NCBI GenBank assembly: GCA_027488835.1
Contig: JAIYAW010000001.1
Location: forward strand, 124,001 to 188,000
Source: Bacteroidota bacterium
Lineage (GTDB): Bacteria > Bacteroidota > Bacteroidia > NS11-12g > UBA955
DNA length: 64,000 nt
Direction of reading: 5' to 3'
In this document: positions 3,888 to 62,720 of the stretch, piece after piece
Layout: every line of letters begins with the position of its first letter
Position numbering within the stretch: the stretch's first letter is position 1
Program-made: the position numbers and the translations under genes
Notes under the pieces: generated by a model
Told to the model about the DNA's origin: nothing
The model's database searches: none
Seen by the model: the letters and a program-made list of their open reading frames with translations, nothing else

Positions 3888-3890
3888 TGC

Positions 3891-4030
3891 TAAAGTTTAT
3901 AAAGGTTTAGACTTAGTTTGGAATTCAAAGGTTTATAAGAGTTTATGAAAGTTTATAAAGGTTTAGACTTAGTTGGAATGGTAACGTTTATAAGAGTTTA
4001 TAAAAGTTTATGAGGGTTTAGTTTTATTTA
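3891..4030 (+). repeat. GTTTATAA decamer array downstream of pheS
   Basis: Tandem and near-tandem copies of a 10-bp unit (GTTTATAArn and variants GTTTATGA, GTTTAGAC). A unit of about 28 bp, GTTTATAAAGGTTTAGACTT plus AGTTTGGAAT, occurs at 3893 and again at 3951, so the array has itself been partly duplicated. All copies point in the same direction as the upstream gene. No coding potential. Confidence 0.85.
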
Positions 4031-4054
4031 TAGTTATAACAAATTTTAGCTGAC

Positions 4055-6824: not shown

Positions 6825-6829
6825 TGGAG

Positions 6830-6837
6830 CAAAATTA
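6830..6837 (-). promoter_or_regulatory. -7 box of the prfA promoter
   Basis: On the reverse strand TAATTTTG fits TAnnTTTG and ends 5 nt before the prfA ATG: a leaderless or near-leaderless transcript is predicted. Confidence 0.55.
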
Positions 6838-7187
6838 AGGAATTCTAACGAATTCCAGGTTTATATGTGTTTATAAAGGTTTATGAGGGTTTAGTTTGGG
6901 CGGTAACTTAATTCCTTTAAGTTTGAAGGAATTTTAGGGTTTATAAAGGTTTATAAAAGTTTATGAGGGTTTAGTTTTGGTAGTTAGTTACCTAGAATTA
7001 AACAGTTGCAGCCGTAAATGCGTTTAGGGGCTGCGCCATTTAGGGTTAAATCAAATTTAAAAACCGTTTCCAAACGAGCGAAGCTCTTCTAAACCAAAAA
7101 GGGATTAGACAGGTTATCCCGAAAGCTTTCGGGAGGGTTAGACAGATTAGACGGATATTTTGGGTGGGTGCATAAACAAAGTTTTTG
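6838..7187 (+). repeat. Repeat-filled spacer between prfA and rpoN
   Basis: About 350 bp without a gene. Two GTTTATAA decamer arrays (6858-6893 and 6938-6975), a GCAGCC/GGCTGC hairpin at about 7005-7032, the mini-hairpin GAGC-GAA-GCTC at 7076-7086 followed by TTCTAAAC, and the perfect palindrome CCCGAAAGCTTTCGGG at 7118-7133. The decamers read GTTTATAA on the + strand, that is TTATAAAC toward the prfA start. Confidence 0.8.
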
Positions 7188-7195
7188 TATCTTTG
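7188..7195 (+). promoter_or_regulatory. -7 box of the rpoN promoter
   Basis: TATCTTTG, an exact TAnnTTTG, 10 nt before the rpoN ATG. A T-rich TTTG 25 nt upstream is a poor -33 candidate. Confidence 0.6.
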
Positions 7196-7205
7196 ATGTG
7201 TTATT

Positions 7206-10912: not shown

Positions 10913-11030
10913 GGTTTATAAAAGTTTATAAGTGTTTATAAAAGTTGGGTTTGGAATCACTTTGCCCTAAACGAGTTAAACTATTTTAAACAAAAATAGG
11001 CGGAGCCGTATACAACGGAGTGTTTTTTGA
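10912..11030 (+). repeat. Decamers and mini-hairpin in the pth-DUF433 spacer
   Basis: Four forward decamers at 10914-10947 (GGTTTATAAAAGTTTATAAG and on), then a GGC-GGA-GCC three-base-loop hairpin at 10989-10997 followed by a related CAACGGAG sequence. The spacer ends in the promoter of the next gene. Confidence 0.7.
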
Positions 11031-11056
11031 TAATTATTATATTTTTTGTATCTTTG
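11026..11056 (+). promoter_or_regulatory. Promoter of the DUF433 gene
   Basis: TTTG at 11026-11029, 19-nt spacer, TATCTTTG at 11049-11056: the best complete match to the Bacteroidota -33/-7 promoter in the window. The ATG follows after 11 nt. Confidence 0.75.
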
Positions 11057-11067
11057 ATAAAAGCTAA

Positions 11068-11274
11068 ATGAAAAAATTTCAAGAGTTTATAGTAATTGAT
11101 CCTAATATTCGTTTCGGTAAACCAATATTAAAAAACACCAGAATTTCGGTGGGTGATGTTATTGGTTGGTTATCTGATGGTCAAGAAAAAAATGAGATTA
11201 TTTCTGATTTTCCTGAACTAACAGTTGAAATGATCAATGCTTGTTTGGCATTTGTTGCGAAAAGAGAATTATAA
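11068..11274 (+). CDS. DUF433 (antitoxin-like) protein
   Basis: 68 aa. The pattern FIVIDPNIRFGKPILKNTRI, then VGDVIGWLSDGQ, EIISDFPELTVEMINACLAF, is the DUF433 helix-turn-helix family. Members are often the antitoxin half of a pair with a DUF5615 PIN-like toxin encoded directly after. Here no partner follows: the next gene is 200 bp away and unrelated, and the spacer holds repeats. It has its own strong promoter. Either an orphan antitoxin or a stand-alone DNA-binding protein. Confidence 0.85.
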   Translation: MKKFQEFIVIDPNIRFGKPILKNTRISVGDVIGWLSDGQEKNEIISDFPELTVEMINACLAFVAKREL

Positions 11275-11447
11275 GGTTTATAAGTGATTATAAGCGTTTA
11301 TAAAAGTTTAGACTATTCGAGGTTAGACGGATTATCCCGAAAGCTTTCGGGAAGATTAGACGGTTTGGAAACCCTAAACCCTAAACGAGCGAAGCTCTTC
11401 TAAATCCTAAACACTAAACCAGCGGAGCTCTTCTAAACCCTAAACAA
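11270..11447 (+). repeat. Mixed repeat spacer between DUF433 gene and B12-domain gene
   Basis: Forward decamers at 11272-11312, palindrome CCCGAAAGCTTTCGGG at 11336-11351, then CCCTAAAC-type spacers carrying GAGC-GAA-GCTC at 11387-11397 and AGC-GGA-GCT at 11421-11429. All three repeat classes of the window occur together. Confidence 0.8.
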
Positions 11448-11459
11448 TAAAAAAATCAT

Positions 11460-11467
11460 TATCTTTG
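11460..11467 (+). promoter_or_regulatory. -7 box of the B12-domain gene
   Basis: TATCTTTG, exact TAnnTTTG, 8 nt before the ATG at 11476. Confidence 0.6.
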
Positions 11468-11475
11468 CTTTCCTT

Positions 11476-12647: not shown

Positions 12648-12660
12648 GTGTTTGTAATTA

Positions 12661-12871
12661 GAAGGTTTCATAGCATGTAATTAGAAGGTTTATAAGCGTT
12701 TATAAACGTTATTTTGCATAGAAAAATCCGAAAATTGACTTTCTAACTTATTTTCGATTCCACGTTGAACTTTCATAAACTTTCATAAACCCCCTAAACT
12801 TTTATAAACCTAAGAATTCCCTAAGCAACTTTTATAAACTTTCATAAACTCCCTAAACTCTCATAAACCTT
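12661..12871. repeat. Composite element copy A (comB - enoyl-CoA hydratase spacer)
   Basis: Short forward decamer arm (12687-12710), a core of about 58 bp (12713-12770, containing CTTATTTTCGATTCCACG and GTTGAAC), then a long inverted arm of TTATAAAC/TCATAAAC/CCTAAAC units to 12870. The inverted arm is duplicated here relative to copies B-D. The most diverged of the four copies. Confidence 0.75.
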
Positions 12872-12878
12872 TTTTTCT

Positions 12879-12886
12879 TACTTTTG
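12879..12886 (+). promoter_or_regulatory. -7 box of the enoyl-CoA hydratase gene
   Basis: TACTTTTG fits TAnnTTTG; the ATG follows after 11 nt (GTAAG plus an A-run). It sits just after the inverted arm of composite element A. Confidence 0.55.
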
Positions 12887-12897
12887 TAAGAAAAAAA

Positions 12898-13665
12898 ATG
12901 AATATCTCCACTCATACTGAAAATAATATTACCATCATCACAATTAACCGTGAAAGCAAATTGAATGCACTTACAATTGATACTTTGCGCGAAATCAAAG
13001 AGGCTGTTACAATTGCCAATGAAGATGATTCTGTGTATGGAATGATCATTACCGGAGCGGGACAAAAAGCTTTCGCAGCTGGTGCCGATATTTCTGAATT
13101 TGCACACTTTAACGAAGAGCAAGCTACCCGAATGAGTGCCGATGGTCACGATGTGATGAACACCATTGAAGATGGGAATAAAATTTGTATCGCTGCCGTG
13201 AATGGTTTTGCCTTGGGTGGAGGATGTGAGCTCGCAATGGCTTGTCACCTCAGAATCGCCAGTGCAAACGCCAAATTTGGTCAACCTGAAGTGAACTTAG
13301 GTGTGCCTCCAGGTTATGGCGGTACCCAAAGACTGATACAATTGATTGGAAAAGGCAAGGCCCTTGAGCTTCTCCTTACCGGCGATGCCATTGATGCCCA
13401 AACTGCTTTGCAATTGGGACTTGTGAACCATGTTGTGGAACAAGATCAATTGCTCGAATACTGCATGCAATTGATGCAAAAAATTGCATCGAAAAGCCCT
13501 TCTGCCGTGCACAAAGTTTTAAAATGTGTGAGCGACTTTTACCGTCCCAACGTAAACGGCATGCAGCGCGAAATTTATGAATTTGGTAGCGCCTTTGAAA
13601 CCCCCGACTTCCAAGAAGGCACGGTTGCGTTTTTAGAGAAACGGAAACCTAATTTTAGGAATTAA
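12898..13665 (+). CDS. Enoyl-CoA hydratase/isomerase family protein
   Basis: 255 aa crotonase. Seen: oxyanion-hole blocks AFAAGADISEF and ALGGGCELAMACH, with Glu111 and, in QPEVNLGVPPGYGGTQRL, Glu131, the two acidic residues that define an active hydratase. Likely hydrates trans-2-enoyl-CoA in fatty-acid or short-chain acyl-CoA breakdown. No other beta-oxidation gene is adjacent, so the substrate is unknown. The gene stands alone between two composite repeat elements. Confidence 0.92.
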   Translation: MNISTHTENNITIITINRESKLNALTIDTLREIKEAVTIANEDDSVYGMIITGAGQKAFAAGADISEFAHFNEEQATRMSADGHDVMNTIEDGNKICIAAVNGFALGGGCELAMACHLRIASANAKFGQPEVNLGVPPGYGGTQRLIQLIGKGKALELLLTGDAIDAQTALQLGLVNHVVEQDQLLEYCMQLMQKIASKSPSAVHKVLKCVSDFYRPNVNGMQREIYEFGSAFETPDFQEGTVAFLEKRKPNFRN

Positions 13666-13680
13666 TTCCTAAAATTAGGA

Positions 13681-13826
13681 GTTTATAAAGGTTTATAAGT
13701 GTTTATAAAAGTTTATAAGGGTTGATTTTCAATAAATTAAAACTCATACTGGATTTTATAACTTATTTTTGATTTACCAATGAACCCTTATAAACCTTCA
13801 TAAACCCCCTAAACTCTTATAAACTT
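13681..13826. repeat. Composite element copy B (enoyl-CoA hydratase - purQ spacer)
   Basis: Forward arm of four exact 10-bp units at 13681-13720, core 13725-13785 (CATACTGGATTTTATAACTT, ATTTTTGATTTACCAATG), inverted arm 13786-13826. The arms pair over about 42 bp; GTTTATAAGGGTT (13711-13723) and AACCCTTATAAAC (13783-13795) are perfect complements, giving a stem with a loop of about 60 nt. Confidence 0.85.
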
Positions 13827-13832
13827 TTTTCT

Positions 13833-13840
13833 TACCTTTG
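13833..13840 (+). promoter_or_regulatory. -7 box of the purQ promoter
   Basis: TACCTTTG fits TAnnTTTG and ends 4 nt before the ATG, so the mRNA is predicted to start at about the A of the start codon. Confidence 0.6.
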
Positions 13841-13844
13841 CACC

Positions 13845-14519
13845 ATGAAATTCGGAGTGGTAATTTTTCCAGGTTCAAACTGTGACCAAGATCTAATTGA
13901 CGTTTTGTCGGGGTATTCAAATGAAGCAGTTGAAAAACTTTGGCACAAATCAAGCGATTTGATGGGATGTACGCATATCTTTATTCCGGGTGGATTCAGC
14001 TACGGCGATTACCTTCGCTCCGGTGCCATTGCAAAATTGAGTCCTATTATGGATGCCGTTTCTCAACACGCTGCCAATGGCGGTTTTGTGATGGGAATTT
14101 GCAACGGATTTCAAATTTTAACCGAAAGCGGTTTGTTGCCAGGCGCTTTGCTTCGAAATACCAATATCAAATTCAATTGCAAAAATGTTTTCCTGAAACC
14201 AGGAACCACCGATAGCATGGTAACCAATAAATTATCTGACAATCAGGTAATTCAAGTTCCTATTGCCCACGGTGAGGGACGTTTTTATTGCGACGATACT
14301 ACCTTGGCTGAAATTGAAGCCAACAACCAAGTTATTTTCCGCTATTGTGATTCTGAGGGAAACACTACCGACGAATCCAATCCAAACGGATCAATTAACA
14401 ACATCGCAGGAATCACCAACGCCGGCCGCAACGTATTTGGCATGATGCCGCATCCAGAAAGATGTGCGGCGGAGTATTTGCTCAATTCAGACGGAAGGTT
14501 GGTATTTGAAAGTTTGTAA
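13845..14519 (+). CDS. purQ: Phosphoribosylformylglycinamidine synthase, glutaminase subunit
   Basis: 224 aa, class I glutamine amidotransferase. Supplies ammonia from glutamine to PurL in step 4 of purine synthesis. Seen: start KFGVVIFPGSNCDQD, IPGGFSYGDYLRSG, the nucleophile Cys86 in VMGICNGFQIL, and H203/E205 in GMMPHPERC completing the triad. The small stand-alone form implies a three-part PurLQS-type complex. purL and purS are not in the window. Confidence 0.96.
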   Translation: MKFGVVIFPGSNCDQDLIDVLSGYSNEAVEKLWHKSSDLMGCTHIFIPGGFSYGDYLRSGAIAKLSPIMDAVSQHAANGGFVMGICNGFQILTESGLLPGALLRNTNIKFNCKNVFLKPGTTDSMVTNKLSDNQVIQVPIAHGEGRFYCDDTTLAEIEANNQVIFRYCDSEGNTTDESNPNGSINNIAGITNAGRNVFGMMPHPERCAAEYLLNSDGRLVFESL

Positions 14520-14534
14520 ACCTTTGTAATTAGA

Positions 14535-14683
14535 GCGTTTATAAGTGTTTATAAAGGTTTATAAGCGTTTATAAAGGTTCGGTTTGCAATAAATAAAAAA
14601 TGATACTGGATTTTATAAGTTATTTTTGATTACACGTTGAACTCTTATAAACCTTCATAAACTCCCTAAACTTTTATAAACCT
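14535..14683. repeat. Composite element copy C (purQ - aroQ spacer)
   Basis: Forward arm 14535-14579, core 14583-14640 (ATGATACTGGATTTTATAAG, TATTTTTGATTACACG), inverted arm 14641-14683. Core nearly identical to copies B and D. Confidence 0.85.
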
Positions 14684-14699
14684 ATATTTTTTGAATGTA

Positions 14700-15143
14700 A
14701 TGAAAAAAATACTAATACTAAACGGTCCCAACTTAAACTGGCTTGGGAAAAGAGAGCCTGAAATATACGGAAACGAGGGATTGGATGATATGATAAACGC
14801 GTTGAGACAGCAGTTTCCGGAGGTGGAAATTGATGCGCTTCAATCGAATGTGGAGGGTGAACTCATTAATTGTTTGCAACAAGGCGAAAATGATACATCT
14901 ATTCATGGAATTGTGTTCAACGCTGGCGGTTACACCCATACCAGCATCGCACTTGCCGATACGCTTAAAGCTATGAGCAAAAAAGTAATATTAGTCCACC
15001 TCAGTAACATTTACGCCCGAGAGCCAGAACGACATACAGATTTGCTTTTAGCCAACGCACATGGGTGTGTGCTTGGTTTAGGAAGTGATAGCTATGCGTT
15101 GGCGGTTTCATTTTTTTTAAAAAAAAAAAAAAAAAAGGATTAG
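14700..15143 (+). CDS. aroQ: 3-dehydroquinate dehydratase, type II
   Basis: 147 aa. Third step of the shikimate pathway. I use ATG at 14700; a TTG three codons earlier is in frame but unlikely. Seen: LILNGPNLNWLGKREPEIYG with the catalytic Tyr, FNAGGYTHTSIALADTL, and HLSNIYAREPERH. The C-terminus is odd: after SFFL the frame runs through 18 consecutive A (15119-15136), encoding six Lys and one Asp before the stop. Family members normally end about there without this tail, so its length depends on the homopolymer. Confidence 0.93.
   Translation: MKKILILNGPNLNWLGKREPEIYGNEGLDDMINALRQQFPEVEIDALQSNVEGELINCLQQGENDTSIHGIVFNAGGYTHTSIALADTLKAMSKKVILVHLSNIYAREPERHTDLLLANAHGCVLGLGSDSYALAVSFFLKKKKKKD
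15111..15136 (+). repeat. T8-A18 homopolymer at the aroQ 3' end
   Basis: Eight T followed by eighteen A inside the last codons of aroQ. Prone to replication slippage or sequencing error; it changes only the last residues and the stop position. Confidence 0.9.
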
Positions 15144-15500
15144 AAAGGATTAAAAAGGTTTATGAAGGATTATAAGTGTTTATAAAGGTTTATAAGTGTT
15201 TATTAAGGATTATAAGTGTTTATAAAAGTTTATGAGGGTTGAATGGTAGGAATTAGAAGGTTAATTGATAGTAATTAGAAGGATTATAAGTGTTTATAAA
15301 GGTTTATAAGTGTTTATTAAGGATTATGAGTGTTTATAAAAGTTTATGAGGGTTGAATGGTAGGAATTAGAAGGTTTATAAAAGTTTATAAGGGTTGATT
15401 TGCAATAAATAAAAACTGATACTGGAATTTATAACTTATTTTTGATTTACCAATGAACCCTCATAAACCTTCATAAACTCCCTAAACTTTTATAAACCTT
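15144..15500. repeat. Composite element copy D with expanded forward arm (aroQ - SDR spacer)
   Basis: About 360 bp without a gene. Forward decamers fill 15144-15398. Within them a 96-bp block at 15167-15262 is repeated at 15281-15376 with a single mismatch, a 114-bp direct duplication. Core at 15400-15455, inverted arm at 15456-15500. Confidence 0.85.
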
Positions 15501-15515
15501 TATTTTTTGAATGAA

Positions 15516-58772: not shown

Positions 58773-59858
58773 TCATAAACCCTTAAATTCCTCTACAATC
58801 CTCTCCGCTGTTTTACCATCCCACATTGGGGGAATGGCGCCAGTTTTCCAATTTCCTGATTGCAGTTTATCTAAGGCCTTTGCCAAATCTTCAGGTTTTG
58901 TGCCTACCAATTCGTTTGTGCCAATTTCGCAGGTTTCAGGTCGTTCGGTACTATTTCTCATAGTAATACAAGGAACTCCCATTACTGTAGTTTCTTCTGT
59001 TATCCCACCAGAATCGGTAACAACACCTTTTGCATGTTTTACCAAAAAGTTGAATTCGAAGTAAGACATTGGATCGGCCATAATTACATTGTTTGGTTTG
59101 ATACCAAACAATTCCATGTTTTTTCGGGTTCGAGGGTGAACAGGAAAAATTACTTTACTTGCCGATAACGATTTTTCGATTACTTCAAAAATGTTGCGCA
59201 TTTGTTCCGCGTGATCCACATTCGACGGGCGATGAAGTGTCATCACGTAATAATCTTTTTCCTTCAATTCTTCAGAATGCCAAAGTGAAGGCGCAATCAA
59301 ATCTTTATCGTGGAACAACAATGTATCGATCATTGTGTTGCCAACAAATTTGATTTTATCTTCTGAAAAACCCGCATTTCTTAAGTTATTATTTGCAGTT
59401 TCCGAAGTAGTGAAAAACAAATCAGTGATGCTATCAGTAACCAATCTATTGATTTCCTCTGGCATTTCAATGTCCCAGCTTCTTATGCCTCCTTCAACAT
59501 GGGCCACTTTTGTGTGCAATTTCTTGGCAACAATGGCACAAGCCATGGTGCTAGTAACATCACCAACTACCAATACAAAATCACAAGGATTGGCTATCAA
59601 TTCTTTTTCAAATGCCACCATAATGGCAGCGGTTTGTTCGGCTTGGGTTCCACCCCCACATTCTAAATTTACATGTGGTTCAGGAATATTTAATTGTTCA
59701 AAAAAACTACCAGACATTGCTTTGTCATAATGTTGACCTGTATGCACCAATCTGTAATCAATGTTGCTACCAGAATTCTTCGCATTATCAATTGCCCTAA
59801 TTATTGGAGCAATTTTCATAAAATTCGGTCTAGCACCTGCAATCAAAGTAATTTTCAT
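58773..59858 (-). CDS. wecB: UDP-N-acetylglucosamine 2-epimerase (non-hydrolysing)
   Basis: 361 aa from the ATG at 59858. A longer frame to 59948 runs through the promoter and mini-hairpins and is rejected. Seen: KITLIAGARPNFMKIAPIIR, VHTGQHYDKAMSGSFFEQL, VVGDVTSTMACA, HVEGGIRSWDIEMPEEINR, HPRTRKN, and VVTDSGGITEETTVMGVPCI followed by TMRNSTERPETCE. Interconverts UDP-GlcNAc and UDP-ManNAc for surface polymers. Stands at the outer edge of the polysaccharide genes. Confidence 0.95.
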   Translation of the reverse strand: MKITLIAGARPNFMKIAPIIRAIDNAKNSGSNIDYRLVHTGQHYDKAMSGSFFEQLNIPEPHVNLECGGGTQAEQTAAIMVAFEKELIANPCDFVLVVGDVTSTMACAIVAKKLHTKVAHVEGGIRSWDIEMPEEINRLVTDSITDLFFTTSETANNNLRNAGFSEDKIKFVGNTMIDTLLFHDKDLIAPSLWHSEELKEKDYYVMTLHRPSNVDHAEQMRNIFEVIEKSLSASKVIFPVHPRTRKNMELFGIKPNNVIMADPMSYFEFNFLVKHAKGVVTDSGGITEETTVMGVPCITMRNSTERPETCEIGTNELVGTKPEDLAKALDKLQSGNWKTGAIPPMWDGKTAERIVEEFKGL

Positions 59859-59863
59859 TATCA

Positions 59864-59871
59864 CAAAGATA
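59864..59871 (-). promoter_or_regulatory. -7 box of the wecB promoter
   Basis: On the reverse strand TATCTTTG, exact TAnnTTTG, 5 nt before the wecB ATG. Decides the start of the gene. Confidence 0.65.
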
Positions 59872-59884
59872 CAAAAAATAAGTT

Positions 59885-60145
59885 TAGACGAGCTTCGCTC
59901 GCTTAGACAACCTGCCGGTCGTTTAGTTTTATGCAACCACTCAAACAACCTTTTCTGTTTAGAAGTACTTCGTGCGTTTAGGGTTTAGAAGCATTGCCAT
60001 GCGTTTAGACCGCTACGCGGTTATATTAGAAATGTGATTAAAATATTTAATAAACGACCGGCAGGTCTACTAAACGCCGGAGGCTTCTTAAACAAGCGAA
60101 GCCATCTAAACGCTTATAAACTTTCATAAACTTTTATAAACCTTA
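59885..60145. repeat. Array of diverse mini-hairpins plus decamers between wecB and the S46 peptidase gene
   Basis: About 260 bp, no gene. Short hairpins with different stems but a common TTTAG/TAAAC spacer: GAGC-TTC-GCTC (59890), GTAC-TTC-GTGC (59965), GCAT-TGCC-ATGC (59991), CCGC-TAC-GCGG (60010), GACC-GGCA-GGTC (60056), GCC-GGA-GGC (60076), and GGCTTC/GAAGCC (60082/60098). ACCTGCCGGTC at 59910 is the complement of the sequence at 60056, so a larger fold is possible. Inverted decamers follow at 60105-60143. Confidence 0.8.
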
Positions 60146-60150
60146 TTTAT

Positions 60151-60158
60151 TACTTTTG
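60151..60158 (+). promoter_or_regulatory. -7 box of the S46 peptidase gene
   Basis: TACTTTTG fits TAnnTTTG, 7 nt before the ATG at 60166. Confidence 0.6.
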
Positions 60159-60165
60159 CTTTTTT

Positions 60166-62373
60166 ATGAAACATAGAATTTTAAGTTTACTATTGGCAGC
60201 TTGCAGTGTACTTGCTTTGCGTGCCGATGAGGGAATGTGGCCTTTGAACTTGCTCAGCAAGATTCAAGACAAAATGCAAGCCCGCGGTTTGAAATTATCT
60301 GCTGAAGATATTTATGCTATTAATAAATCATCTGCAAAAGATGCTGTTGTTAGACTCATGTCTAAACAAGGCAGAATGTTCTGCTCAGGTGAAATTATTT
60401 CTAGCAAAGGTTTGTTCCTTACCAACCACCATTGCGGTTACGATGCAATCCAAGAAATTGCTACCCCACAAGACAATATCCTTGCAAACGGATTTTGGGC
60501 GAAATCAATGCAAGAAGAGCGTCGCGCTGGTTTTAACATTGGTTTACTTCGTAAAATTGAAGATGTAACTTCACAAGTATTTAATGGTGTTGCCATTTAC
60601 GCTCCTGAAACAGAAAGAACTGCAAAAATTGCCGCTCAAGTGAATGTAGTAAGAGGCAATCTTCTTAAAGCACTTGGCGATGAAGCTGCTAACTATATCA
60701 TCGAAGTGACTCCATTCTATAATGGAAACCAATTCTTGGCAATGTACTACGAAGTTTTCCGCGACATTCGTTTGGTTGGTGCGCCACCAGAAAACGTGGG
60801 TAAATTTGGCGGTGAAACCGACAACTGGAGATGGCCTCGCCACACTTGCGACTTCTCTATGTTCCGCATTTATACAAACGCAAATAACAAGCCTGCCGAC
60901 TATAACGCAGCAAATAAAGCTTTCACCCCTTACCACCACTTTCCAATATCCCTCAAGGGCGTAAAAGAAGGTGATTTTGCAATGACCATGGGATATCCAG
61001 GTAGAACTACCCGTTATACTTATTCTGAGGGAATTCGTTACCTTTCAGGTAAAGAGCGTCCGATGCGTGTGCAAGTGCGCCGTGACATCATGGACGTTTA
61101 CGAAACTTACATGAAGGCCGACAAAAACGTACGTTTGATGTACAGTTCTAAATTGGCAGGATTGGGTAACTATTGGAACAAATTCAATGGCGAAGCAAAA
61201 GAATTGTCAAAGCCTGAGTTCTACCAAAAACGCAAAAGTGCTGAAATGGCTTTCGAGCAATGGGTTAGAGCGAATAACAAACAAGACGTTTATGGTGATG
61301 TAACCAGTCTTTACGACGAAGCTTACGCCGGAATGAATAAATACGGTTTGTATGCAGTTTATTCTCAAGACGGTATTTCTAACAGCGTGCCAATGTCGAA
61401 CGTGTCTCAAATTTATGGCATTATCAAAACCCAAAAAGATATTGCAGCAATGGATGCTGTGAAAGATTCTGCGAAAATTCGCAAAATGAATGCAGCAGTT
61501 GCTAAAATGATTGCAGGTTATGCTGAGGGAATTTCAGAGGCTTACCACGAATTCAACGGTAACATTGAAAAACAAGTAATTGCAGTTGTTTTGAAACACA
61601 TTTTGATGGACTTAGACCATGCGTCTTTGCCTGCTTCGATGTTGAAAATGGACGAAAAGTTCAAACATAACTATACCGCTATGGCAAATTCTTTGTGGAG
61701 CAGCTCTATTTTCTGCGATACAGTGAAATTAAAAAAGGCAATGTCTAATTTCAAAGCAAAGAACATTGAAAAGGATCCATTGTATACCATTATTGCAGGT
61801 TATGTAAATATGTTGAATGTTGATTTAAAACCAACACTCGACGAAATATCAAACAAATTGGCCCGTGCAAATCGTTTGTACATGGCGGCTCAATTCGAGA
61901 TGGAGAAAGACAAAGTGTTTGCACCAGATGCAAATGGTACTATGCGTTTGAGCTACGGTACGATCGAAAGCTACAAAGCCCGCGATGCCGTAGATTATAA
62001 TTATTTCACAACATCACGCGGTATCCTTGAGAAGTACATTCCTGGTGATTTTGAGTTTGATGCTCCAGAATCGTTGATCAACATTATCAAAAAGAAAGAC
62101 TTTGGTCGTTTTGCGGATGCAGACGGTGAACTTCATACTTGTTTTTTAAGCAACAACGACATTACTGGTGGTAATTCTGGTAGTCCTGTTATCAATGGCA
62201 ACGGTGAATTGATTGGCACGGCTTTCGATGGTAACTGGGAAGCAATTGCGAGCGACTTCGGATTTATGCCATCTGTACAGCGCACAATCAGCGTTGACAT
62301 TCGTTTTACCCTTTTCATTGTTGAAAAATTGGGTGGCGCGGGAAATATTATTGCGGAGTTGGAGCTTAGGTAA
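60166..62373 (+). CDS. S46-family dipeptidyl-peptidase (DPP7/DPP11 type)
   Basis: 735 aa, usual length. Signal peptide about 1-20 (LLLAACSVLALRA). Double-barrel chymotrypsin-fold serine protease: LFLTNHHCGYDAIQEIAT with the catalytic His (88/89), the GGETDNWRWPRHTCDFSMFR block carrying the catalytic Asp, and ITGGNSGSPVINGNGELIGT with Ser671. The S1-specificity residue, 18 positions after the Ser, is Gly689 in AFDGNWEA, as in DPP7 (hydrophobic P1), not Arg as in DPP11 (Asp/Glu P1). Periplasmic release of dipeptides from peptides. Confidence 0.93.
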   Translation: MKHRILSLLLAACSVLALRADEGMWPLNLLSKIQDKMQARGLKLSAEDIYAINKSSAKDAVVRLMSKQGRMFCSGEIISSKGLFLTNHHCGYDAIQEIATPQDNILANGFWAKSMQEERRAGFNIGLLRKIEDVTSQVFNGVAIYAPETERTAKIAAQVNVVRGNLLKALGDEAANYIIEVTPFYNGNQFLAMYYEVFRDIRLVGAPPENVGKFGGETDNWRWPRHTCDFSMFRIYTNANNKPADYNAANKAFTPYHHFPISLKGVKEGDFAMTMGYPGRTTRYTYSEGIRYLSGKERPMRVQVRRDIMDVYETYMKADKNVRLMYSSKLAGLGNYWNKFNGEAKELSKPEFYQKRKSAEMAFEQWVRANNKQDVYGDVTSLYDEAYAGMNKYGLYAVYSQDGISNSVPMSNVSQIYGIIKTQKDIAAMDAVKDSAKIRKMNAAVAKMIAGYAEGISEAYHEFNGNIEKQVIAVVLKHILMDLDHASLPASMLKMDEKFKHNYTAMANSLWSSSIFCDTVKLKKAMSNFKAKNIEKDPLYTIIAGYVNMLNVDLKPTLDEISNKLARANRLYMAAQFEMEKDKVFAPDANGTMRLSYGTIESYKARDAVDYNYFTTSRGILEKYIPGDFEFDAPESLINIIKKKDFGRFADADGELHTCFLSNNDITGGNSGSPVINGNGELIGTAFDGNWEAIASDFGFMPSVQRTISVDIRFTLFIVEKLGGAGNIIAELELR

Positions 62374-62384
62374 GGAATGCTAGG

Positions 62385-62480
62385 GTTTATAAAAGTTTAT
62401 AAGGGTTTATAAGCGTTTGGCTTTCTAAATAGACAAGGTTTGTAAGTTTAAATTCGGGTTTTTTGTAATCTGAAAAAACT
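62385..62480 (+). repeat. GTTTATAA decamers after the S46 gene
   Basis: Three to four forward units at 62385-62416 directly after the stop, then unique sequence up to the terminator. Confidence 0.75.
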
Positions 62481-62495
62481 GAGAAATAAGAGATG

Positions 62496-62522
62496 GGGCT
62501 GCACGAAAGTGTGGCCCTTTTT
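62496..62522 (+). terminator. Intrinsic terminator after the S46 gene
   Basis: GGGCTGCAC-GAAA-GTGTGGCCC: a 9-bp stem with two wobble pairs and a GNRA loop, followed by five T. Confidence 0.85.
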
Positions 62523-62529
62523 GTTGGGA

Positions 62530-62700
62530 ATTCAAAGGTTTATAAAAGTTTAGACGACCTGAGAAAAGGATTATAAAGGTTTATAAAAGTTTATAAAGGT
62601 TGTTTTAGCGGTTGCAAAAAAACTAAACAACCTCCCGAAAGCTTTCGGGAGGTTGTCTAAACGGCGCAGCCGTCTAAACGAGCGAAGCTCTTCTAAACTT
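62530..62700. repeat. Decamers, 30-bp palindrome and mini-hairpins before pheT
   Basis: Forward decamers at 62535-62600. Perfect 30-bp palindrome at 62627-62656 with CCCGAAAGCTTTCGGG in its centre. Then CGGC-GCA-GCCG at 62662-62672 and GAGC-GAA-GCTC at 62680-62690, separated by TCTAAA. The hairpins stop 18 nt before the pheT -7 box. Confidence 0.85.
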
Positions 62701-62707
62701 ATTTTCA

Positions 62708-62715
62708 TATCTTTG
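62708..62715 (+). promoter_or_regulatory. -7 box of the pheT promoter
   Basis: TATCTTTG, exact TAnnTTTG, 5 nt before the pheT ATG. Confidence 0.65.
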
Positions 62716-62720
62716 TTGTA

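Follow-up and report, generated by a model that had tools for sequence, protein, structure and literature searches.

The array described here is one copy, among dozens in its genome, of a mosaic repeat family restricted to one genus. Its units share a common grammar, their stems stay paired and covary, and they follow a rule of orientation relative to the flanking genes; between species the arrays keep their location with units replaced, and composite elements stand at non-orthologous places. On balance we favour a REP/BIME-like or organelle-palindrome-like DNA repeat, probably propagated, with its pairing maintained, through template switching and array recombination. We infer that these two processes are its motor and that a conserved host function is absent.

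The array and its repeat family

The host is a freshwater bacterium, and the window, i.e. the whole stretch of 64,000 nucleotides analysed (G000:C1:124001-188000), belongs to its Bacteroidota genome of 2.49 Mb (own genome, G000). The focus array fills a 307-bp spacer between divergent genes which we take, from recognition of their proteins, to be wecB (58773-59858, minus strand) and an S46 peptidase gene (60166-62373, plus strand). The initial annotation had reported mini-hairpins with differing stems and constant spacers at 59885-60104, and this observation is confirmed; its interpretation, either as a DNA-level signal or palindrome-generating process or as an RNA processing signal, is partly supported. 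The units have the form GTTTAG-A-N-(3-4 bp stem, 3-4 nt loop)-GTTTAG, with constant GTTTAG/CTAAAC spacers, and measure 17-20 bp, close to the 20 bp first estimated. The array is longer than was noted, extending from about 59882 to 60142, and its right end is made of 10-bp tandem units without hairpins. Units are oriented on the plus strand left of about 60021 and on the minus strand right of about 60051 (Table 1). At least six stems of 3-4 bp had been counted: stems of 4 bp or more that pair perfectly around a loop of 3-4 nt are found at 59889, 59991, 60009 and 60056, and two 3-bp stems add to these, but GTAC-TTC-GTGC, one of the original examples, holds a T-G pair. The array is a single member of a mosaic repeat that recurs across the genome, and the variety among its stems in part reflects a set succession of hairpins within a composite element.

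Table 1. Features of the focus array and further arrays, in window coordinates
Feature	Position	Strand	Basis and remarks
-7 promoter box TATCTTTG of wecB, TAnnTTTG type	59864..59871	-	sequence reading; just outside array; kept in G011 orthologue, array not
Unit GTTTAG-A + hairpin CGAGC-TTC-GCTCG (stem at 59889)	59882..59901	+	sequence, shuffle control
Unit (G)CTTAG-ACA + 3-bp-stem hairpin ACC-TGCC-GGT (59910), then GTTTAG	59902..59926	+	sequence
Link GTTTAGTTTTATGCAACCACTCAAACAACC..., matches GTTTAGTTTTTTTGCAACCGCTAAAACAACC module at ~62600-62630 (minus strand)	59921..59956	+	compared by eye
Unit GTTTAG-AA + hairpin GTAC-TTC-GTGC (59965; imperfect, one T-G pair), then GTTTAG-G	59957..59982	+	sequence, unit alignment
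Unit GTTTAG-AA + hairpin GCAT-TGCC-ATGC (59991)	59983..60002	+	sequence, shuffle control
Unit GTTTAG + hairpin ACCGC-TAC-GCGGT (60009)	60003..60021	+	sequence, shuffle control
AT-rich centre; unit orientation turns from + to -	60022..60050	.	sequence, composite comparison
Unit GTTTAG-TA + hairpin GACC-TGCC-GGTC (+ strand GACC-GGCA-GGTC, 60056)	60051..60075	-	sequence, shuffle control
Unit GTTTAAGAA + hairpin GCC-TCC-GGC (+ strand GCC-GGA-GGC, 60076; 3-bp stem)	60076..60093	-	sequence, composite comparison
Unit GTTTAG-AT + imperfect hairpin GGC-TTC-GCT (+ strand AGC-GAA-GCC, 60095)	60094..60111	-	2 Watson-Crick pairs + 1 mismatch
Three 10-bp tandem units GTTTATAAAA / GTTTATGAAA / GTTTATAAGC	60112..60142	-	sequence
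Composite element, ~165 bp, homologous to G011:C1:137179-137349 and 130266-130427	59950..60125	-	sequence comparison
-7 promoter box TACTTTTG of S46 peptidase gene	60151..60158	+	sequence reading; kept in G011
Other tandem-unit spacer array	3888..4054	.	
Other mosaic array (10-mers, hairpins, CCCGAAAGCTTTCGGG palindrome)	6825..7205	.	
Two more array spacers around short gene 11068-11274	10913..11475	.	
Four neighbouring array spacers with near-identical 130-165 bp palindromic element, 76-93% identity; genes between	12651..15515	.	
Array spacer downstream of S46 gene; tandem units left, hairpins right	62374..62720	.	

The family is assembled from mini-hairpins, 10-bp tandem units (GTTTATAARR), the composite of ~165 bp and larger palindromes. 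The focus spacer has 62 blastn matches in its own genome, mostly to the 10-bp units, and GTTTATAARR 10-mers are enriched 30-200 fold in spacers relative to coding DNA. Our statistics draw on two samples, ~755 kb from the own genome, some of which was selected because it had array hits, and 240 kb from the sister species G011; genes in the samples were called by a simple hexamer method. Orientation was scored per spacer because unit counts are not independent. In G000, units are directed away from the flanking gene in tandem-unit spacers (39:1) and in GTTTAG hairpin spacers (22:0); the corresponding figures for G011 are 16:0 spacers for its 9-mers and only 10:5 spacers for GTTTAG, the latter counting against the copying interpretation. 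Since units point outward from both flanking genes, each spacer forms a large imperfect inverted repeat.

The composite has 14 matches in G000, 39 in G011, 18 in G012, 7 in G013 and 2 in G005, and zero in nine other congeners and 56 genomes from 13 other genera. The two G011 homologues are 85-86% identical to the window copy and 93% identical to each other, and the right half of the element is near identical across copies, differing at one stem base and at the N of a GNA loop. Four congeners alone carry the exact GAGC unit; searches of viral contigs with the exact unit, and of plasmids and phages with the composite, returned zero matches, and our searches of the literature turned up no account of such units. 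The near-identical elements in neighbouring spacers at 12651-15515 suggest local copying. A larger palindrome, CCCGAAAGCTTTCGGG, in relatives CCCGATAGCTATCGGG, also occurs among the units (window 7115-7140, 11330-11350 and 62628-62655).

Pairing, covariation and loop types

Chance formation of hairpins in biased sequence is scarcely credible as an explanation of the array. The control proposed with the initial annotation, a comparison with shuffled sequence, gave a divided answer at 59885-60104: the 4 hairpins with perfect stems of at least 4 bp (0.88 expected) are matched in 20 of 2000 dinucleotide shuffles, so that the count alone reaches only p ~0.01 for this 220-bp stretch, but the 3 hairpins directly touching a spacer (0.019 expected) are matched in 0 of 2000. 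As the count is only modestly unusual, chance fails for the combination of hairpin and spacer, not for hairpin density. A genome-wide excess points the same way: stems of at least 4 bp occur in 17/60 distinct GTTTAG..GTTTA inserts of the own-genome sample (2.0 expected) and in 11/40 of those in G011 (1.1 expected).

The claim that stems vary with pairing kept is borne out by an alignment of 22 distinct units with 13-nt inserts, which were selected for insert length and flanking sequence, irrespective of pairing. In this alignment 90.9% of cells pair, compared to 71.5% after shuffling, and covariation is 0.562 versus 0.208, a value reached by 0/500 shuffles and lost when partners are slid. The inner two pairs alternate between A-T, C-G, T-G and T-A, and between G-C, A-T and T-A, respectively.

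In the direction away from the gene, TTC, TGC, TAC and TCC account for most triloops, and TGCC, TACC, TTCC and TAAC for most tetraloops. Read gene-ward, most loops are of the GNA (GAA, GCA, GTA, GGA) or GNNA type, the GNA loop having been named in the initial annotation. Hairpins of the C(GNA)G and C(GNNA)G kind are unusually stable as single-stranded DNA. With the DNA parameters of ViennaRNA, GNA triloops and their complements have equal energy, which makes the calculation uninformative for triloops; for tetraloops the GNNA strand comes out more stable by 0.3-0.4 kcal/mol. One array contains a loop-inverted pair, GAGC-TGC-GCTC and GAGC-GCA-GCTC (L078, 9423/9461).

Compensatory changes of this sort are also what would be expected of a structured RNA, or of an RNA processing or termination signal in untranslated regions. 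The first unit follows a stop codon at a median of 10 nt, so many arrays are probably transcribed; next to start codons the median distance is 29 nt. We nevertheless regard an RNA signal as distinctly improbable, and this part of the initial interpretation is not upheld: the arrays use both strands equally and flank 5' and 3' gene ends alike, upstream copies lie outside the promoter and hence not in the mRNA made from it, G-T wobbles are unbiased by strand (~3 vs 3, counted by eye in the unit list), separate ordinary terminators are present and conserved, and turnover of the arrays between the sister species G000 and G011 is nearly complete. An Rfam covariance-model search gave nothing above the gathering score, only sub-threshold chance matches. 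Covariation by itself, the arrays warn, does not prove functional RNA.

Arrays in related genomes

The sister species is represented by the metagenome-assembled Flavobacteriales MAG Jr-11may16-137 (G011), which shares with G000 156 reciprocal-best genes at a median protein identity of 93%. Among 66 orthologous spacers, called with a motif set that was picked after viewing both genomes, 11 carry arrays in both species and 55 in neither (P=9e-13), and the search for empty sites found zero spacers with an array in one species only. Within array spacers, sequence replacement reaches as far as the conserved -7 box; most of the array-free spacers listed can be aligned colinearly. Hairpin or tandem module class could be resolved for 18 half-spacers and agrees in 13 of them, which is only suggestive of a partly conserved class. 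That place is kept with units swapped between species speaks for a process by which DNA is copied and not for a fixed signal.

Even the unit length changes. The tandem units of G011 are 9-mers (GATTAGACA), and TRF finds a period of 10 in the window; in G011 it is mostly 9, and in two more remote relatives, G010 and G001, it is 7. Samples of G008 and of three further genera, the latter 20-100 kb each, have almost no arrays. In G010, 7-mer arrays flank the S46 gene on both sides. The 7-bp tandem arrays of G010 and G001 (L105, L106, L176, L177) include GTCCATA, GGATTCG, ACTACGG, GGTAGAG, ACCAGAA and others, several different heptamers occurring in a single genome.

Since place is conserved and the loops are of a stable kind, the strongest rival explanation is a selected DNA-structure element, in which cruciforms or single-strand hairpins serve as protein sites or supercoil sinks, and sequence may drift provided that structure and place are kept. 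Analogues of such signals are the promoters of the N4 virion RNA polymerase and REP-gyrase sites. The dyad arrangement fits this explanation, as does the enrichment of arrays in convergent spacers (14/46 vs 6/88 divergent, own-genome sample). However, many array spacers or halves hold tandem units without hairpins, most spacers of the genome lack arrays and look otherwise normal, and the shift of tandem period from 10 to 9 and 7 breaks helical phasing; we consider a selected structure unlikely. A helically phased binding array of 10-bp units was likewise considered, and was dropped on account of the 9-bp and 7-bp units.

Arrays are also sites of rearrangement. The composite (86% identity) is found upstream of the S46 gene in G000 and downstream of it in G011, and in G009, G010 and G012 the neighbours or the orientation of S46 differ, with the breaks within array spacers. 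In G012, the spacer after S46 (L102, 9100-10980) is built of tandem blocks of ~150 bp with near-identical flanks and changed mini-hairpins. The hairpins of these blocks are GCCGAAGGC, GCTTTAGGC, GTCGGAGGC and GCCGGAGGC.

In G011, accessory genes lie between arrays where G000 has none: RES/Xre, HigBA- and HicB-like genes (toxin-antitoxin-like by eye), a nucleotidyltransferase, a transposase and others. This would suit integron-like or other recombination cassettes, whose palindromic sites flank movable genes such as toxin-antitoxin pairs, but the G000 genes with arrays on both sides are mostly single housekeeping genes, e.g. those for PurQ, AroQ and ribosomal protein L19 (by eye). The integron integrase model TIGR02249 has no match over the cut-off in the own genome, and weak matches occur in all controls as well; we find cassettes highly improbable. 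When the attC box patterns RYYYAAC/GTTRRRY are compared by eye, GTTTAGA does not fit them and GTTAGAC, seen in some G011 units, does. Individual examples of accessory genes between arrays, absent from the orthologous place in G000, are seen at G011:C1 66620-71045 and 130459-132967 (L090-L101), with toxin-antitoxin-like pairs, a nucleotidyltransferase and an ATPase. One DDE-like transposase adjoins an array in G011.

Proposed copying at the DNA level and likeness to known systems

In the mechanism that we favour, the constant GTTTAG spacers would supply microhomology and the hairpins would stall replication synthesis. A stalled strand may then slip, move to a different template or recombine with a second array, whereby units would be copied, deleted, inverted or replaced. 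Template switching inside a hairpin could re-pair the arms after mutation of one of them, and could flip the loop. Template switching at inverted repeats is described as homogenising arms and leaving flipped loops as its signature (PMC8604942, PMC8794818), and the GAGC-TGC-GCTC / GAGC-GCA-GCTC pair fits a putative loop flip. Selection would purge arrays that enter genes or core promoters, so that arrays persist between a stop codon and the -7 box of the next gene. Most likely the array acts at the DNA level, and a fixed host function is not needed. The palindrome-generating process of the initial annotation is supported as one option. We count in favour of copying the covariation, the GNA loops, the loop inversion, the shared location with replaced content, the outward orientation, the moved composite, the neighbouring copies and the breaks around S46. 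On the other side, fixed location and partly conserved module class could mean a conserved function, and the bias of loop type may reflect selection for single-strand stability. Unit gain or loss between strains was not caught, the closest pair compared being ~8-10% apart in DNA.

The background may be permissive for palindromes. SbcD and SbcC have no match over the cut-off in the genus, and SbcD none over the curated cut-off in 70 genomes of the family, only genus g14 having moderate Mre11-like matches. An SbcCD-deficient background is at most permissive, and its loss was rejected as sole cause: SbcD is missing across the family outside g14, yet the samples of three genera are almost free of arrays, so its absence alone is insufficient to explain them.

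We also entertain, tentatively, a satellite-like turnover in bacteria, with spacers fixed and content rewritten in concert over the genome, even as to unit length (10, 9 or 7 bp in different congeners), and with location and outward symmetry kept. If true, it would require a novel activity, copying or writing, by which dispersed arrays are homogenised. Arrays left in place with replaced units are a natural experiment on the origin, pairing and homogenisation of short repeats and hairpins in bacteria; they help to separate selection for structure from a mutation process that restores pairing, and they mark points of rearrangement and gene insertion in these genomes.

Among known systems, MITEs have terminal inverted repeats, and the outward-pointing units at both ends of the arrays are of that kind. 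ERIC are intergenic imperfect palindromes of ~130 bp, and the arrays likewise carry intergenic palindromic elements of about that size; ERIC, however, lack an internal chain of mini-hairpins with a common spacer and are, as far as we know, unrelated in sequence.

Arrays of the TAACTGA heptamer are described, in the portion of the source consulted, from intergenic regions of Beggiatoaceae, cyanobacteria and some Bacteroidetes (PMC4679880). Like the present arrays, they are made of short tandem repeats located in spacers, have a patchy taxonomic distribution and no function shown, and G010 and G001 have 7-mers as well. In that portion, one unit sequence recurs across taxa and no hairpin units are described, whereas here units and their lengths are species-specific.

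REP, BIME and REPIN elements are GTAG- and CGTC-tagged palindromes (PMC3733652). The arrays, too, are intergenic, with many copies and inverted pairs, and share with these elements the small tagged palindromes, the mosaic structure and variation between species. They differ in the GTTTAG tag, the chains of differing 3-5 bp stems, the 9/10-bp tandem units and the lack of a RAYT in the genome. Movement in trans by a RAYT (Y1) transposase, which the tagged intergenic palindromes and inverted pairs would recall, is therefore very improbable: PF01797, the one family covered by our search for HUH enzymes, is absent from 13 of 14 genomes of the genus, including G000 and all array-bearing GTTTAG genomes, and is found only in G007. 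Reverse transcriptase (PF00078) is absent from the array-bearing genomes.

The palindromes of Volvox and other green algal organelles proliferate, are confined to noncoding DNA and are thought to be selfish (PMC2670323). The arrays agree with such selfish palindromes in being proliferating and noncoding, with a mobiliser absent as searched (PF01797, PF00078, TIGR02249), and also in their 3-5 nt loops, nested and mosaic arrangement and TTTA motifs. In the green algal organelles, however, TTTA/TAAA forms the loop, whereas in the bacterial chromosome arrays the unpaired spacer is GTTTAG, with GNA in the loop.
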